A DNA stretch of 64,000 nt, taken from contig NZ_FNBO01000007.1 of assembly GCF_900102375.1 (NCBI RefSeq), positions 1-64,000 on the forward strand. The letters are read 5' to 3'. Position 1 is the stretch's first letter, and every line of letters begins with the position of its first letter. A program made the position numbers and the translations under genes. The notes beneath the pieces were generated by a model. That model was not told the origin of the DNA and did no database searches. It was given only the letters and a program-made list of their open reading frames with translations. Below are positions 7,268-61,975 of the stretch, in pieces. The DNA is from Halorubrum xinjiangense (GTDB lineage Archaea; Halobacteriota; Halobacteria; Halobacteriales; Haloferacaceae).

Positions 7268-7319
7268 GCCTTCGAGACGCCGCTGTGCGAGATAACCGTT
7301 TCTGCGGAAGACGCGTCGC

Positions 7320-8012
7320 TCACCGGGTCGGTGTCGTCCCGACAAGATCGACGAGGTCGCGGAGGGTGTCGATCTCCGCGGTCGGCTCGACATCGAGGTC
7401 GAGCGCGGCGTTGTGCTCGCGCCTGAGGAACACGCCGTCGAGGCCGGCCCGCTCGGCGGCGATCACGTCGGTGGCGCGGTCGCCGACGTAGAGTCCCCCG
7501 GTCGCGTCGAGCGCGTCGAGCGCCTCGTTCAGGTAGTGCGGGTCCGGCTTGCGGCGGCGGAACCCGTCCGGACCGAGGTCGCGGCCGCGGACGAACGAGA
7601 ACGCGTCGAGCCGGAAGTGGTCGACGACGAACTCCACGGTCGGGTGGTAGTTGTTGCTCACGAGCCCGACGGGGACGCGCTCCGCGAGCTCGCCGATCGC
7701 GTCGACGTCCGGACAGAGCCGTCTCGTCCCGGCCGCGAGCCGGGCGACGGAGCGCTTCGCGCTGCGCTCCTCGCGGGCCCGGAACAGGGTCGCGGGATCG
7801 ACGCCGAGCTCCTCGCAGGCGCCTTGGAAGCCGTCGTCGTACTCGTACGTCTCCAGCGGGCGCCGGAGGTCGCCGGGAACCCGCAGGTCCCGTTCCTCGA
7901 GCACGTCGTCGAGCGCACGGCTGTGAACGGCGTCGTCGGTCCCCCAGCCGTCGAGGATCACGCCGTCCATGTCGAAGAGGACGACCCCCTCGCTCCGTCT
8001 CTCGGTCGCCAT
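7320..8012 (-). CDS. HAD-superfamily hydrolase, last gene of the phn operon
   Basis: A 230-residue haloacid dehalogenase-like phosphatase. Motif I is VLFDMDGVILD (nucleophile and acid aspartates), motif II VSNNY, motif III the lysine of RRKPDP, and motif IV GDRATDVIAAE; the segment between motifs I and II is a helical cap. Its ATG shares a base with the stop codon of the upstream phnE (TGATG), so the two are translationally coupled. Position downstream of phnDCEE suggests it acts on the imported compound, for example as a phosphonatase-type or phosphate-ester hydrolase, but the cap shows no diagnostic phosphonatase lysine that I can assign. Confidence 0.87.
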   Translation of the reverse strand: MATERRSEGVVLFDMDGVILDGWGTDDAVHSRALDDVLEERDLRVPGDLRRPLETYEYDDGFQGACEELGVDPATLFRAREERSAKRSVARLAAGTRRLCPDVDAIGELAERVPVGLVSNNYHPTVEFVVDHFRLDAFSFVRGRDLGPDGFRRRKPDPHYLNEALDALDATGGLYVGDRATDVIAAERAGLDGVFLRREHNAALDLDVEPTAEIDTLRDLVDLVGTTPTR

Positions 8013-8806
8013 CAGCGCACCTTCCGTCGGGCGTACGCCGACACGCCTTCGCTGACGAGCACGACGCCGAGGATGGCGACGAGGAGCGCCGACACCGTCC
8101 GCCACGCGAACGAGTCGATCGCCTCGAACAGCTGGACGCCGATCCCGCCGGCGCCGACGAACCCGAGGATCGTCGCCGCGCGGACGTTGATGTCCCAGCG
8201 GTACACGCTGAGCCCGACTAAGGCGGGCTTGATCTGCGGGACGATTCCGTAGACGAGCAGCTGAGCGGGGCTCGCGCCGGTCGCCCGGACCCCCTCCACC
8301 TGCCCGAAGTCGATCTCCTCGATCTCCTCGCCGAGGAGCTTCGCGAGGAACCCGATCGACCGGACCGCGGTCGCGACGGTGCCGGCGAGCGCGCCCGGCC
8401 CGAACATCACGACGAACAGCAGCGCCCAGACGATCGTGTGGACCGACCGCGAGACGGTGACGATGACCTTCCCGAGCGCGTACGTCGCCCGGTTCGGCGT
8501 CGTGTTCTCCGCGGCGATGTACGCGACCGGCGCCGCCATCGCCACCGCCGCGATCGTCCCGACGACGGCGATCTGTATCGTCTCGGCGAGCGGGCCGACC
8601 GCGTTCGGCAGGTACGCCCAGTCCGGGGGGTACATGCGTCCGATCAGGTCACCGACTTGTGTCGGAGCCGTAGTCACGTACCGGAGACTCATGTCGAGCC
8701 ACTGCCACGAGGCGATCACCACCGCGGCCGCGATGACGACGGACCCGATCCGGAAGAGACGCTCCCTCGCGTCGAACCGGCTCCAGTCGCGGGTGGCTCC
8801 CGCCAT
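8012..8806 (-). CDS. phnE: Phosphonate-type ABC transporter permease PhnE (second copy)
   Basis: A 264-residue inner-membrane permease with about six membrane segments. It has the binding-protein-dependent transport motif EGVRATGASPAQLLVYGIVPQIKP, the EAA loop that contacts the ATPase. It is clearly a paralogue of the upstream permease, sharing RWDINVRAATILGFVGAGGIG near the C-terminus, so the two probably form a heterodimeric channel. The ATG at 8806 shares one base with the stop of the upstream permease. The much longer upstream frame is Arg-rich shadow sequence and was discarded. Confidence 0.92.
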   Translation of the reverse strand: MAGATRDWSRFDARERLFRIGSVVIAAAVVIASWQWLDMSLRYVTTAPTQVGDLIGRMYPPDWAYLPNAVGPLAETIQIAVVGTIAAVAMAAPVAYIAAENTTPNRATYALGKVIVTVSRSVHTIVWALLFVVMFGPGALAGTVATAVRSIGFLAKLLGEEIEEIDFGQVEGVRATGASPAQLLVYGIVPQIKPALVGLSVYRWDINVRAATILGFVGAGGIGVQLFEAIDSFAWRTVSALLVAILGVVLVSEGVSAYARRKVR

Positions 8807-9642
8807 CACTGGACCCTCCGTCTGACGAGGGCGCTCACGAACTCGGCGACGAGGACCACCGCGATGATCGCGATGAGAATCGCCGCCACGTAGTCGTACT
8901 CGTACCGTTGGTAGGCCCGCTGGAGGAGGACGCCGATCCCGCCGGCGCCGACGATCCCGACGATCGTCGACGACCGGATGTTGATGTCCCACCGATACAC
9001 GGCGAGTCCGGCGAAGCGCGGAACGACCTGCGGGACGACCCCGTAGACGAGGCTCTGGAACCGGGAGGCGCCGGTCGCCCGGACTGCCTCGACACCTCCC
9101 ATGTCGATGTCCTCTAAGTCCTCGGCGAACAGCTTCGAGAAGAAGCCGATCGTCTTGAAACTGATCGCGACGATCCCGGCGAGCGGGCCGAACCCGAGCG
9201 CGATGACGGCGATGATCGCGACGATCAGCCCGTCGATGGCGCGCGTGGCGCTGATGATACCGCGACTGAGGTAGTAGGTCGGCTTCGGCGAGATGTTCTC
9301 GGCCGCCCCGAACGCCACCGGGAGGCTGATCGCGATCCCGGCGACGGTCGCGACCATCGCCATCGCGATCGTCTCGATCATGCGATCAAACAGTCTGAGC
9401 ATGTTTTCGTTGCCGGTCTCGGGCGGCAACATCGAGTCGATCAGCTCGTAGCCGTACCCGATCCCGGAGAGGAAGCGGGCGGGCGTGATCTGGAGGCTCG
9501 CGACCGACCACGCGATCAGCGCGAGGACGAGGCCGTACACCAGCCACTTGACTCGGCGGCTCCGGAACGCGGTCGGGCGCTGCCACGACCGTCGATTCGC
9601 CGCGCCCGTCGACCCGGCCGGCGAGGACGACTCGGTCGCCAC
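8806..9642 (-). CDS. phnE: Phosphonate-type ABC transporter permease PhnE (first copy)
   Basis: A 278-residue permease with an N-terminal cytosolic stretch of about 25 residues and around six membrane segments. The EAA-type loop reads GVEAVRATGASRFQSLVYG, and the C-terminal RWDINIRSSTIVGIVGAGG is the PhnE signature. The start is GTG at 9642, three bases after the phnC stop. It pairs with the second phnE and the PhnC ATPase in the membrane. Confidence 0.92.
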   Translation of the reverse strand: MATESSSPAGSTGAANRRSWQRPTAFRSRRVKWLVYGLVLALIAWSVASLQITPARFLSGIGYGYELIDSMLPPETGNENMLRLFDRMIETIAMAMVATVAGIAISLPVAFGAAENISPKPTYYLSRGIISATRAIDGLIVAIIAVIALGFGPLAGIVAISFKTIGFFSKLFAEDLEDIDMGGVEAVRATGASRFQSLVYGVVPQVVPRFAGLAVYRWDINIRSSTIVGIVGAGGIGVLLQRAYQRYEYDYVAAILIAIIAVVLVAEFVSALVRRRVQ

Positions 9643-9645
9643 GGG

Positions 9646-10494
9646 TCAGTCCTCCGCGGGCAGGCGGTCCGGGTCAACGTCCGAGCCGTTGCGGGCGCTC
9701 GATTCTTCGTCCGGACCCGACAGCCAGTCCGGGTCGGTGGCGGCCGACTCCGGCGCCTCCTCGCCGCGGTAGATGACGCCTTTCGACTCTCCGGTGAGAT
9801 CGCACGCCGGCCCGTCGAAGACGAGCTCGCCGGCGTGGAGCCCCAGGATTCGGTCCGCGTACGCCTCCGCGAGGTCGACCTCGTGGATGTTGATCAGCAC
9901 GGGCACGTCGCGGTCCTCGGCGATGTCGGTGAGCAGCTCCATCACGTCGCGGGAGGTCTCGGGGTCGAGGCTCGAGGTCGGCTCGTCGGCCAACAGGATC
10001 TTCGGCTCCTGAACGACCGCCCTCGCGATCCCGACGCGCTGGCGCTGCCCGCCGGAGAGCTCGTCGACCCGCTTGTCCTCCATGCCGTCGAGCCCGACGA
10101 GGTCCAGCAGCTCGTAGGCGCGCTCGACGTCCTCCGGCGGGAAGTTCCGCCGGAGCGCGGCCCAGTTCGAGACGTAGCCGAGGCGCCCGGAGAGCACGTT
10201 CTCCATCACGGTGAGCCGCTCGACGAGGTTGTACTCCTGGAACACCATCCCGATGTTCCGACGCGCGTCCCGCAGGTCGTCCTCGTTGAGCGACGTCAGC
10301 TCCTTCCCGTCGAGCCGAACGCTCCCGGCGGTCGGCTCAGTCAGCCGGTTGATACATCGGACGAACGTGCTCTTCCCGGCGCCGCTCGGACCGATCATCG
10401 CCACGAACTCGCGGCCGTCGATGGTCACGGAGACGTCCCGGAGCGCCTCGTCGCCGGTCGGGTACGTCTTGCCGAGGTTCTTCGTTTCCAGCAT
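9646..10494 (-). CDS. phnC: Phosphonate-type ABC transporter ATP-binding protein PhnC
   Basis: A 282-residue ABC ATPase. Walker A is GPSGAGKS, followed by the Q-loop region [23 protein letters not shown], the signature LSGGQRQR, Walker [15 protein letters not shown] and the H-loop [30 protein letters not shown] is characteristic of PhnC rather than of PstB or amino-acid transport ATPases. The acidic C-terminal 50 residues are a halophile-type extension. It powers uptake through the two PhnE permeases; phosphonate, phosphite or phosphate esters are all possible cargos. It starts 3 nt after phnD. Confidence 0.94.
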
Positions 10495-10497
10495 CGG

Positions 10498-11715
10498 TCA
10501 CAGGTTCCCGCTCTCGTACTCGACGCCGTTGTACCGCTGGATGATCAGGATGTCGTTGAAGACGTTCTTGTAGTCGATTTCGACGTACTCGGCCTCACCG
10601 GTGTTTTCGGCGTACTCGGTGTCCGTCCAGTCGGTCCCGATGGTCGCCTCCTTGATCCCTTCGACGATGTCCGGGTGGAGGTCGTATCGGTGGACCATCG
10701 GACCCGGCGGGAACGGGTTGCTCGCCCAGACCACTTTGAAGTCGTCGTAGTCGATGTCCTCTGTCGACCCGATGAGGTCATCGACGCAGGTGCTGCAGAT
10801 CGGACCGGCGTCGTAGTCGCCAACCGCGATGCCGCGGGCGGTCTGGTCGTGGCCGCCCGAGAATTCCCTCTCGTAGTCCTCGCCGGCCGTCACGTCGAAG
10901 AACTGGTCGAACAGCGCCGACGGCGCCTGGTTACCGGAGTTCGACGCAGGCTCGGAGTGCGTGACTGTGACATCGTCGCGCGCGAAGTCGTTGACGGACT
11001 GGATGTCGTGCTCGTCGTCGCGGGTGATCGCCAGCAGCCGGTAGCCGAACTGTCCAGAGGGACTTATCGGGACCGCGAACGGCACGATGCCGCCGAGGTT
11101 GACGCCGAACGCCGACGTCCCTGTCGAGATGTCGCCCAGGTGTCCGCGACCCGCCCGGAACGCCTCGACCGTCGCCGCGTTCGAGTCGACGGGCTGCCAC
11201 TCGACCGTCCGGCCCGTCGTCTCCTCGAGCCGATCCAGGAGCGGCTGGATGGTCTCCTGGTACTGCGCCTGGCCGGATTCGCCGGGCTTGTCCACGAAGA
11301 TGAGCGGGTCGGGGTCGACCCACTCGCTCTCGTCGTCGGGCAGATCCCGCGGCGGCTCGCCGTGAGCGATCTCGTCGACATCCTGGTTCCGCATGTTCTC
11401 CAGGTCCGTCTGACTCCCCTGGAAGTAGTCGTTCTCCGCGATCGCCGTCATCAGGTAGTTGTTCTCCTCCCAGTTGGGCTCGGCGGGATTGAACTCCGAA
11501 GCGTCCGCGAGCATCGGGTCGCCCGACCCGCCGTCGCCGCCGTCGCTTCCGTCACTGCCGTCTTCGCTGCTCGACTCTAGGCCCGCTCCGGCCTCGTTGC
11601 CGCCGCCGCTCCCGCCGGAACAGCCTGCCAAGCCGGCGATTCCGACCGCGCCGCCAGCGAGGATGAACTTCCGTCTGGAACTCGTCTCCGTCCGTTTGCC
11701 GGTGTCTTCCACCAT
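10498..11715 (-). CDS. phnD: Phosphonate-type ABC transporter substrate-binding lipoprotein PhnD
   Basis: A 405-residue secreted binding protein. The N-terminus has a twin-arginine motif SSRRKFI (Arg14-Arg15) and a lipobox LAGC with Cys32, so it is exported folded by Tat and lipid-anchored, as usual in haloarchaea. A Gly/Ser/Asp-rich linker of about 50 residues follows. The periplasmic-type domain carries IQPLLDRLEETTGRTVEWQ, FRAGRGHLGDISTG and VVWASNPFPPGPMVHR, the pattern of PhnD/SsuA/TauA-like phosphonate binders. It heads the operon and should set the substrate. Confidence 0.92.
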   Translation of the reverse strand: MVEDTGKRTETSSRRKFILAGGAVGIAGLAGCSGGSGGGNEAGAGLESSSEDGSDGSDGGDGGSGDPMLADASEFNPAEPNWEENNYLMTAIAENDYFQGSQTDLENMRNQDVDEIAHGEPPRDLPDDESEWVDPDPLIFVDKPGESGQAQYQETIQPLLDRLEETTGRTVEWQPVDSNAATVEAFRAGRGHLGDISTGTSAFGVNLGGIVPFAVPISPSGQFGYRLLAITRDDEHDIQSVNDFARDDVTVTHSEPASNSGNQAPSALFDQFFDVTAGEDYEREFSGGHDQTARGIAVGDYDAGPICSTCVDDLIGSTEDIDYDDFKVVWASNPFPPGPMVHRYDLHPDIVEGIKEATIGTDWTDTEYAENTGEAEYVEIDYKNVFNDILIIQRYNGVEYESGNL

Positions 11716-12046
11716 TACGACTCAAACTCCGCATTTCGGGGTAAGAAGGCTGCTATGAGCCGAACATGGCCGATCGTACCAGCACGTGGCCGTCCCGAGC
11801 GGAACGTACCGTTCGCACCGCTACGAGAGGAACTGTGACATATAAATCGGTACATATCGCTCCGGAGACAGATACCGGGCGGAGAAGAGGTCCGGGGTAC
11901 GGGGACGAGAGCGGGGGTACGGGGACGAGGACCGCCGGACGGGAGCGAGGACCGCCGGACGGGGACGAGGGCCGCCGGACGAGGACGAGGGCCGCCGGAC
12001 GAGGACCGCCGGGCCGCGTTTCCGCCCGGCGGAGCGGCCGCTCGGC
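11716..12046 (-). promoter_or_regulatory. phnD upstream region with TATA-like box
   Basis: This 331-bp gap between hisD and phnD holds no gene. CCGATTTATATG on the minus strand (about 11838-11850) is the best TATA candidate for the phn operon and lies about 125 nt before the phnD ATG, so a long leader is implied unless a weaker box is used. The rest is filled by the 20-bp tandem repeats listed separately. No Pho-box can be assigned by eye. Confidence 0.4.
11901..12012 (+). repeat. Tandem 20-bp repeats, about five and a half units
   Basis: Units begin at 11901, 11921, 11941, 11961 and 11981 with a partial unit at 12001. The consensus is GGGGACGAGGRCCGCCGGAC; the first unit is the most divergent. 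The array lies between the hisD stop and the phn promoter. Confidence 0.9.
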
Positions 12047-20668: not shown

Positions 20669-21222
20669 CGGCTATTTATAAATCGAAGATGCGGCGGCGC
20701 GTGCCGACGAGCGCCCGAAAGGCGCGAAGTCGCACGCGCGAGGGACGCCGCGAACGCCCGAAGGGCGTGAGCGGCGAGGCTGGGGAGGTGTGAGGTGCTG
20801 TGCGGTGCGGGGCGGGACTCGAAGGGGCAGTCGCGAGGGCAGCGCAGGCGACGTAAGCACCGCAGGAACGAGCGGAGCGAGTGACGAGGAGCGCAGCGAG
20901 CGTGCGCCGCCCTCGCGGCTGGGGCTTCGGATGTGTTCGCCGTCAATTCGGCCTCGACGATTTATAAGCGAGCGGCTGGGGCTTCGGATGAGTTCGCCGT
21001 CAATTCGGCCTCGACGATTTATAAGCGAGCGGCTGGGGCCTCGGATGAGTTCGCCGTCAATTCGGCCTCGACGATTTATAAGCGAGCGGCTGGGGCCTCG
21101 GCGGTGTGCGTCACCGATCCGCTCTCAACGATTTATAAATGAACTGCTAGGGCTTCGACGGCGTTCGTCGCCGATCTGCCCGCACTAGTTTATAAACGAT
21201 CGACTGGAAACTCCGACTCAGA
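20667..21222 (+). repeat. Structured non-coding repeat element, copy 1 (putative RNA core plus 57-bp tail modules)
   Basis: Fills the gap between RNase P RNA and htpX. TATA-like TTTATAAA lies at 20675-20682. Core 20691-20930: stem I GCGCGTGC (20697-20704) with GCACGCGC (20732-20739), enclosing a GCGCC-CGAAA-GGCGC hairpin; stem II CGCCGC (20746-20751) with GCGGCG (20771-20776); linker AGGCTGGGGAGGTGTGAGG (20777-20795); linker GGGACTCGAAGGGGCAG; stem III TCGCGAGGGC (20831-20840) with GCCCTCGCGG (20909-20918). Tail: modules starting GCGGCTGGGG at 20915, 20972, 21029 and 21086, then two diverged ones; TTTATAA at 20961, 21018, 21075, 21132 and 21189, exactly 57 bp apart. A short frame through the tail exists only because 57 is a multiple of three. 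Confidence 0.85.
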
Positions 21223-48390: not shown

Positions 48391-48790
48391 CTTTTAAATA
48401 GCATCTGTGCGGTGGCGCGTGCCGATGAGCGCCGCACCGCGGCGCGAATCGCACGCGCGAGGGAGTCGGTGGTCCGGAGCGAAGCGGAGGACCACCGACG
48501 AGGCTGGGGAGGCGTGAGGCTGCGGTGCTGTGCGGTGCGGGGCGGGACTCGAAGGGGCAGCCGCGAGGCGGTGTTCTCCGCGGTAGCAGCTACGTATTGC
48601 CGAGCGGCTGGGGCTTCGGCGGTGTTCGTGTCGATCTGCTGTTTATAAGAACCACCTTCGTACGGCCGAGCGGCTGGGGCTTCGGTGGCGTTCGACATCG
48701 ATCCACCAGCAGCAGTTTATAAGCGATCAGCTGAGACTTCGACGGCGTTCGCCGGCCACCCACAGTCGCCCATTTATAAACGATCGGTCG
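48391..48790 (+). repeat. Structured non-coding repeat element, copy 2
   Basis: Begins with TTTTAAATA at 48392-48400, 9 nt after the metX stop. Stem I: GCGCGTGC (48415-48422) with GCACGCGC (48451-48458). Stem II: GTCGGTGGTCC (48464-48474) with GGACCACCGAC (48489-48499), perfect over 11 bp. Linker AGGCTGGGGAGGCGTGAGG at 48501-48519 and CGGGACTCGAAGGGGCAGCC near 48543. The third hairpin is shortened: CCGCG and CGCGG enclose only about 13 nt, instead of the long arm of the other copies. Tail modules GCGGCTGGGGCTTCGG at 48604 and 48670, a diverged one at 48725; TTTATAA at 48642, 48716 and 48773. Confidence 0.83.
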
Positions 48791-59143: not shown

Positions 59144-60400
59144 GTGGCAGACGACTACGTGCGTCGGACGGCAATCACTCGTCTCTCGGTAGACGATGAG
59201 CAACGCGAGTTGCTTGAGGAAACCATCTCCGAGTGGAAGCGTGGATGCCAACTCGCCACGGACATGGCGTGGGGCAAATACAACGCGAAAAGCGACGTAC
59301 AGCCCCTCGCATACGACGACGTGCGCGAACACACCGACCTCGGGAGTCAGCACGCGATTCTCGCCACCCACCAAGCCGCACAAGCCATCACCGGCTGTAT
59401 CGAACGGAAGGCGAAGGACAAGAAGGTGAGTAAGCCCACCTTCACCGCACCCACGGTGAAATACGACACCCGGACCATGACGGTATTTGATGATGATACG
59501 GTGTCACTCTCCACCACAGAGAGTCGCGTACGGTGCGACCTAGCCCTCTCTGACGCCGACGATGGCTACCAACGGCAATACCTCGACTCTGACAACTGGA
59601 GCGTCACGGAAAGCACGCTCACCGTCCGTGACGGCGACTATTTTTTACACATCGGCTTCCGCCGACCCAAGACCGACACCGAACGGAACACCGCCGAGGA
59701 CGGGACGGTCCTCGGGGTTGACCTCGGTATCGAAAACCTCGCCGTCACAAGCACCGCCTCCTTCTTCAGCGGGCGGGAGTTAACCCACGATCTCCGCGAG
59801 TTCGAGAAGGTACGCGCCGGACTCCAACAGACTGGGACGAGGAGTGCCCATCGGACGCTCGAACGATCGAGCGGCCGTGAACTTCGCTACGTTCGGGATG
59901 TACTCCACCGAGCATCCAACGCTATCGTCTCGGAAGCGCTCCGGTACGAGTGCGACGTGATCGCGTTCGAGGACCTAACCAATATCCGCGACCGTACGGG
60001 AGCGTCGTGGGGACACAAGTGGGCGTTCCGAACGCTGTACGAACAGGTGGAATATAAAGCCGAAGCGGAAGGTATCACGGTGAAGCAAGTTGGATCGGCA
60101 TACACATCCCAACGGTGCGCCGAGTGTGGATTCACGGCAGACGAGAATCGCCGAACTCGCAACGACTTTCGATGTGTGAAGTGTGAGTCGGAAGCGAACG
60201 CGGATTACAATGCGGCGAAGAACATCGGGATGCGGTATGTCCGTCGAGGCCAACAGTCGTCTCGGCGGACGGGCGACAGTCAACTCGCCCTGAAGTCTGG
60301 AACTGTGACACCGAGTGGCGGATTCACCGCCTACCCGGACGGGTTTGAGGCCGAGTTCATGGACAAGCCCCACCCTCAACGAGCGAACCCATCAGGGTGA
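59144..60400 (+). CDS. tnpB: TnpB RNA-guided nuclease of an IS200/IS605-type element
   Basis: A 418-residue TnpB with an intact RuvC nuclease: Asp193 in GVDLGIENLAV, Glu276 in IAFEDLTN and Asp354 in NADYNAAKN. The zinc finger Cys325-x2-Cys328 (CAEC) and Cys344-x2-Cys347 (CVKC) is complete. TnpB uses an ωRNA from the element right end to cut matching DNA next to a short motif and so helps keep the element. No tnpA is adjacent, so the element is of IS1341 type and needs a helper transposase. GTG at 59144; a TATA-like box lies about 26-32 nt before. Codon use looks slightly less GC-rich than flanking genes, as for a transferred element. Confidence 0.95.
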   Translation: MADDYVRRTAITRLSVDDEQRELLEETISEWKRGCQLATDMAWGKYNAKSDVQPLAYDDVREHTDLGSQHAILATHQAAQAITGCIERKAKDKKVSKPTFTAPTVKYDTRTMTVFDDDTVSLSTTESRVRCDLALSDADDGYQRQYLDSDNWSVTESTLTVRDGDYFLHIGFRRPKTDTERNTAEDGTVLGVDLGIENLAVTSTASFFSGRELTHDLREFEKVRAGLQQTGTRSAHRTLERSSGRELRYVRDVLHRASNAIVSEALRYECDVIAFEDLTNIRDRTGASWGHKWAFRTLYEQVEYKAEAEGITVKQVGSAYTSQRCAECGFTADENRRTRNDFRCVKCESEANADYNAAKNIGMRYVRRGQQSSRRTGDSQLALKSGTVTPSGGFTAYPDGFEAEFMDKPHPQRANPSG

Positions 60401-61570: not shown

Positions 61571-61975
61571 ACTTATAAATGAACGACGCGGTGGCGCGTG
61601 CCTGCGAGGCCGCTCCGCGGCCGAGCAGCACGCGCGAGGGAGTCGGCCGACCGGAGGGAGGCCGACGAGGCTGGGGAGGCGTGAGGTGCGGTGCGGAGCG
61701 GTGCGGGGTGGGACTCAAAGGGGCAGCCGCAAGGCCACAGTAGGCGACGTAAGCACCGCAGCGAGCAACACGAGCGAGGAGCGCAACGAGCGTACTGTGG
61801 CCTCGCGGCTGGGGCTCTGGAGGTCTCCGCCGCAGATTTGTTCTCGACCATTTATAAACGAGCGGCTGGGGCTTTGGCGGTGGTCGTCGCCGATCCGCTG
61901 ACGACTATTTATAAATAAGCGACTGAGAATTCGGAACGACTCTCCGCAGAGCCGCCGATTATTTATAAACAACCA
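61571..61975 (+). repeat. Structured non-coding repeat element, copy 3
   Basis: The 492-bp gap between BKACE and the biotin carboxylase holds no gene. CTTATAAAT at 61572-61580 precedes the core; another TATTTAAA lies at 61540-61547. Stem I: GCGCGTGC (61594-61601) with GCACGCGC (61628-61635). Stem II: GTCGGCC (61642-61648) with GGCCGAC (61660-61666). Linker AGGCTGGGGAGGCGTGAGG at 61668-61686 and GGGACTCAAAGGGGCAGCC near 61710. Stem III: GGCCACAGTA (61733-61742) with TACTGTGGCC (61793-61802). Tail modules at 61805 and 61862, then a diverged one at 61919; TTTATAA at 61851, 61908 and 61962. Confidence 0.84.

Follow-up and report, generated by a model that had tools for sequence, protein, structure and literature searches.

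Our analysis reveals that three loci in the window (the whole 64,000-nt stretch of Halorubrum xinjiangense DNA analysed here) are copies of a modular haloarchaeal repeat family that is intergenic, high in copy number, and persistent at orthologous sites, and whose fold covaries and shows a strand preference. The best reading is that these are slowly spreading, BOX/ERIC-like repeats; the fuller account, of a non-autonomous family whose + strand works in folded, single-stranded form, most probably as RNA, has in our judgment about an even chance of being right.

The element comprises three hairpins in ~250 nt, plus tandem units, in the order P1, linker GCGAGGGA, P2, linker CGAGGCTGGGGAGGYGTGAGG, linker GGGACTCRAAGGGGC, P3, and one to six tandem units (linker sequence of the element, CGAGGCTGGGGAGG). 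Linker 1 is GAGGGA in each window copy, and a variable G-rich stretch separates CGAGGCTGGGGAGGYGTGAGG and GGGACTCRAAGGGGC. In the family alignment, a GA/GA internal loop in P1 and a GGA/GGA loop in P2 are near invariant, and the G tracts are retained (103/103, 96/103, and 99/103), the fourth tract being present through selection of the set. The tandem array lies 3' of each window copy and consists mostly of 57-bp units; the 3' arm of P3 (GCGGCTGGGGCTTTGG) opens each unit and TTTATAA closes it, and the unit length is 57 bp in 76 of ~100 measured steps, the rest being mostly 66, 51, or 56. Linker 2 of all copies contains GGAGGTG, which is similar to the archaeal Shine-Dalgarno sequence, and pairing of this motif with the ribosome is possible on that likeness. 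Paired mini-hairpins (e.g. GTTCACGAGAGC...GCTCTCGTGAGCCAATCAGAACGC...GCGTTCTGATGAC), apparently separate modules, sit inside element hairpins: in P3 in L004, L016, and L037, also in L020, and in P2 or a linker in L061 and L141.

Re-reading of the sequence places the window copies at 20674-21222, 48391-48790, and 61571-61975, as originally predicted (Table 1). Stem II (P2) changes in sequence between copies with pairing intact in all three, again as predicted; two further expectations hold in part. Specifically, the linkers, described as fixed, are so overall, the departures being linker 2 in copy 1 (GGTGTGAGG) and linker 3 in copy 3 (CTCAAAG), while stem III (P3), described as differing yet paired, has this property at its base, copy 2 having no upper part and retaining the base CGAAG/CTTCG and CAGCCGC/GCGGCTG. 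Copy 1 lies directly downstream of the archaeal RNase P RNA gene (RF00373; 20253-20636), which is a neighbor only: the element gives no match to the RF00373 model. Elsewhere in the window, the segment 58980-60424, which holds a TnpB gene (59144-60400; PF07282/PF01385), appears to have been inserted in the window's genome, as judged from the relatives G153 and G126, which are contiguous across it with ~48 nt in place. Phosphonate-type ABC transporter genes (substrate-binding, ATPase, and permease) at ~7300-12030 are not present in the syntenic region of G153, G126, or G114.

Table 1. Parts of the three window copies; CGAGGCTGGGGAGGYGTGAGG and GGGACTCRAAGGGGC begin at the first positions of linkers 2 and 3, respectively, in each copy.
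Copy	Feature	Positions	Strand	Details
1	Upstream box	20675-20681	+	TTTATAA
1	Hairpin P1	20696-20739	+	GGCGCGTGCC ... CGCACGCGC; tip GAC/GTC
1	Linker 1	20740-20745	+	GAGGGA
1	Hairpin P2	20746-20776	+	CGCCGC ... GCGGCG
1	Linker 2	20775-20795	+	CGAGGCTGGGGAGGTGTGAGG; holds first GGGG tract
1	Linker 3	20814-20828	+	GGGACTCGAAGGGGC
1	Hairpin P3	20820-20929	+	Base helix CGAAG/CTTCG; internal loop GGGC/GGGG
1	Tandem 57-bp units	20921-21200	+	TTTATAA at 20961, 21018, 21075, 21132, 21189
2	Upstream box	48393-48399	+	TTTAAAT; missing from G129 ortholog
2	Hairpin P1	48414-48458	+	Tip GAT/ATC
2	Hairpin P2	48465-48500	+	GTCGGTGGTCC...GGACCACCGAC; loop GCGAAGC
2	Linker 2	48499-48519	+	
2	Linker 3	48544-48558	+	
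2	Hairpin P3	48550-48618	+	Shortened; base helices only
2	Tandem units	48610-48779	+	TTTATAA at 48642, 48716, 48773
3	Upstream box	61573-61579	+	TTATAAA
3	Hairpin P1	61593-61635	+	Tip TGC/GCA
3	Hairpin P2	61642-61667	+	GTCGGCC...GGCCGAC
3	Linker 2	61666-61686	+	
3	Linker 3	61710-61724	+	GGGACTCAAAGGGGC
3	Hairpin P3	61716-61819	+	GGCCACAGTA/TACTGTGGCC
3	Tandem units	61811-61968	+	TTTATAA at 61851, 61908, 61962

The fold is conserved by covariation on the + strand and no protein gene is present, in agreement with the predicted selection on RNA structure. In particular, P1 and P2 in 42 own-genome copies (collected by plain blastn, with a bias toward copy 2, and aligned with MAFFT, structure-free) have 139 double-change cells versus 37 ± 5 in shuffles, with 95.6% of cells paired, and P3 in 44 own-genome copies obtained in the same way has 94 double changes versus 29 ± 4, with 93.0% paired; the shuffles leave relatedness in place, so that the counts are not probabilities, and what matters is how large the excess is and that it recurs across three sets. 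Shifting the stem positions by 1-3 columns abolished the covariation signal. At the base of P3, 70 copies have the helix CAAAG/CTTTG and 25 have CGAAG/CTTCG, with one further such copy differing in a flanking base; a single copy is a hybrid. Ten species share an orthologous copy 3' of the RNase P RNA gene, with different P1 and P2 sequences, and the alignment (12 sequences: the 10 orthologs and 2 non-orthologous copies) is 95.5% paired, with 52 double changes versus 14.6 ± 3. Copies of other genera give 194 double changes versus 62 ± 5, with both sides changed in 29 of 30 pairs, in an alignment fitted to the covariance model, sets found with the model being biased toward it. Short pieces folded singly gave z of -4.0 and -3.5. 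On the + strand, G-U exceeds A-C by ~2-3:1 (31:11, p 0.003; 36:17, p 0.013), indicating that the + strand is the folded strand; such an excess would also be expected from single-stranded DNA. The same ratio disfavors a minus-strand RNA, for which the unit boxes would be better spaced.

The original prediction counted three copies; a covariance model of the element core (R1) finds at least 150 in the window's own genome and at least 150 in the closed genome of a relative, G126. Running the core model on Halorubrum and other genomes returned many copies, with covariation and shared linkers. By blastn with copy 2, 40 full copies were scored in the own genome. The family is carried by 52/52 genomes of the genus; in a class sample, matches are present in 112 of 391 genomes and 28 of 86 haloarchaeal genera, with up to 78 copies in genera other than Halorubrum, and in a phylum sample (n = 295) all 15 genomes with a match belong to the order, and none was seen beyond it. 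The P3-linker pattern occurs, among the matches listed, in haloarchaea only, including Haloarcula, Halobaculum, Haladaptatus, Natrinema, and Halorussus. Two plasmid records match, the only near-full plasmid match being Halorubrum salinarum, and no phage record has a family match. Copy spacing and strand are random along G126, and the positions there reveal no replication-linked spacing or strand bias.

The three window loci are largely conserved in five relatives, with the same orientation and flanks ~90% identical. Between orthologs, the linkers are nearly unchanged and the hairpins are exchanged blockwise, P1 and P2 being swapped as blocks in the five relatives with pairing retained. Two losses were identified: locus 3 of G129 has no copy, the entire intergenic region being gone, and locus 2 of G153 is a remnant left by another insertion. 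Across the three loci in the five relatives, we saw no cleanly vacant site bearing a target duplication. P1 and P2 types also reassort, with 28 combinations in 42 own-genome copies. From these sequence patterns, we read the block exchange as recombination between copies together with selection for folding, with a possible contribution from hairpin-templated repair.

It is conceivable, although we think it unlikely, that the element is instead a DNA-level palindromic repeat with no RNA function, its hairpins acting as single-stranded DNA or its arms being kept by hairpin-templated repair. Such a repeat could be recognized by a single-strand transposase, as REP/PATE elements are, and several features would suit it: by loop counts, the P2 loop is mostly GCGNAGC, which as DNA forms a very stable mini-hairpin; L006 has its P2 loop block in inverted orientation; and paired mini-hairpins are inserted in P1-P3. 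Repair alone, however, leaves unexplained the conservation of the unpaired linkers across haloarchaeal genera; moreover, G119, a genome with many copies, has no IS200-type Y1 transposase, R1 matches near 30 TnpB loci are about as frequent as genome-wide, with no visible enrichment, and no terminal inverted repeats were recognized in aligned genus-type copies. A Y1 transposase as the necessary mobilizer was rejected on the evidence of G119, and derivation from IS605/TnpB is not supported, given the lack of enrichment near TnpB and TnpB right-end hairpins that are unlike the element. Hairpins of this right-end type (TTGACATCCTCCTCCGC...) lie immediately 3' of the tandem units in L006 and L032. 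No partner protein was found. The element termini are undefined: hairpins are present, and a tandem array, itself variable, forms the 3' end.

Genera outside Halorubrum have a P1-P2 core without P3 and a P3 module without the core, and the family is modular because the two occur separately. Isolated P3 modules often come as two inverted copies whose outer ends are complementary. In other haloarchaea, P3 modules (GGGYGGGACTGAAAGGGGC ... GGGGCTTTCTGG) form inverted pairs ~24 nt apart (L188:3600-4250, L190, L201, L211, L225, L227, and L229), with complementary outer ends that vary by copy (AACAGCCA/TGGCTGTT, AACAGCAA/TTGCTGTT, ACAGCGT/ACGCTGT); in this the pairs resemble a small mobile repeat. 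The tandem array behind the core copy in L119 is of another kind (GACACCGAACTCCGCGGTCAG), which means that the 3' module has been swapped between genera.

The TATA-like boxes had been proposed as promoters, with transcripts from about 20691, 48405, and 61590, a proposal left weak by the box spacing and by the general absence of the box outside the genus. A strict TATA-like 6-mer is located upstream in 63/107 copies (~40% are without one), 16-24 nt before P1 with one outlier at -38, and the box is generally absent from copies seen in other genera. In haloarchaeal promoters, the start is expected ~27 nt from the box center; because the box is 16-24 nt before P1, the predicted start lies within the 5' arm of P1. 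We therefore do not regard the upstream box as promoting the complete fold: a start there would cut P1, and the box is variably present. The lack of a properly spaced promoter is a further point for a DNA-level repeat. It also bears on an account that we consider improbable, in which the copies are genes for a beneficial trans-acting host RNA with their own promoters. That account draws on the retention of the fold at orthologous loci between species and on the boxes upstream of the copies and within the units, but it must contend with a predicted start within P1, with boxes that many copies lack, as do those of other genera generally, with the loss of whole loci, and with at least 150 diverging copies, far more than an RNA gene usually has. 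That copies persist for long at orthologous sites is equally compatible with host function and a quiet mobile repeat.

The copies are intergenic (gene context from a simple ORF caller), depleted between divergent gene pairs (5/53 copies versus 60/206) and enriched between convergent pairs (14/53 versus 20/206); the 34/53 copies between tandem genes are indifferent to orientation (14 co-oriented, 20 anti). Insertions that are tolerated away from promoters leave such a pattern; a gene-end role is possible, and unneeded. We give very little credence to a cis-acting gene-end element, whether bidirectional terminator, insulator, or chromatin anchor: the bias toward convergent and away from divergent pairs and the even chromosomal spread would suit it, but most copies lie between tandem genes in both orientations, promoter avoidance alone is sufficient for the pattern, and no T run follows the stems. 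A cis-regulatory leader or trailer was rejected on the mixed orientation of neighbors. Close pairs tend to be tail-to-tail (7 of 9 among those listed, two being the same locus), and close pairs in G126 are of mixed orientation; a composite transposon built from convergent pairs was rejected, the tail-to-tail pairs flanking ordinary genes.

Under the preferred reading of a slowly spreading, folded repeat, P1, P2, and the long P3 would be held by near-invariant purine-rich linkers with four G tracts, and the fold, made by transcription of the + strand, would serve as a scaffold recognized by a host or mobile-element protein. Copies would arise by rare insertion in trans, their stems would be rewritten as blocks through inter-copy exchange, possibly with hairpin-templated repair, and selection would remove copies unable to fold; the tandem units would derive from local duplication of the P3 3' arm with its flank. 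The RNA of a mobile element, a role suggested in the original prediction, is a live option. A bolder version, which we regard as quite doubtful, would have a large structured RNA of a new, haloarchaea-specific class made from many copies, an RNA-protein particle, a long-range four-tract G-quadruplex that ties the hairpins together and is stable in molar intracellular KCl, and SINE-like, RNA-dependent spread, a mode of spread that, to our knowledge, is not known in archaea.

A structured intergenic repeat is, as a kind, already known: BOX of Streptococcus and ERIC of Enterobacteria are intergenic, modular, RNA-foldable, and non-coding, with ~100 or more copies and a tandem module. The element, itself intergenic, high in copy number, modular, stably folded, and non-coding, is likened to them as a kind, not by sequence; BOX and ERIC are bacterial, whereas the element has three hairpins whose blocks undergo fast compensatory change, 57-bp units that bear a TATA box, and a class-wide archaeal spread. 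The SMR, PATE, and MITE repeats of Haloquadratum walsbyi are transposase-free and high in copy number, the PATEs being palindrome-bearing and heterogeneous (PMC3119063). Genus-type copies of the element differ from these in having no recognized IS605-type ends or terminal inverted repeats and in their larger conserved fold, although in other genera some inverted P3 pairs have complementary ends and resemble SMRs. E. coli REPs are short single hairpins of 14-40 nt (PMC12306157); the element shares the dispersed, palindromic, intergenic nature of REP/BIME and differs in its ~250 nt, three hairpins, and units. As had been expected, no RNA family could be assigned, Rfam 15 giving none at gathering or relaxed thresholds for any copy tested. 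The copies do trace to a repeat family, and no described repeat or IS matched it; open-licence papers yielded no description by topic or by sequence. The family, its size, its depth, and its degree of covariation in archaea thus appear to be undescribed within what was searchable.

If these conclusions are correct, more than 1% of these genomes is probably unannotated structured repeat (estimated from at least 150 copies of 250-370 nt), and the family would explain a noticeable part of the conserved-looking intergenic DNA in the genus. Haloarchaea would then carry a fold-selected repeat that offers at least a hundred natural compensatory variants in each species, which would provide a model and test case for the persistence, spread, and evolution of structured repeats in archaea.
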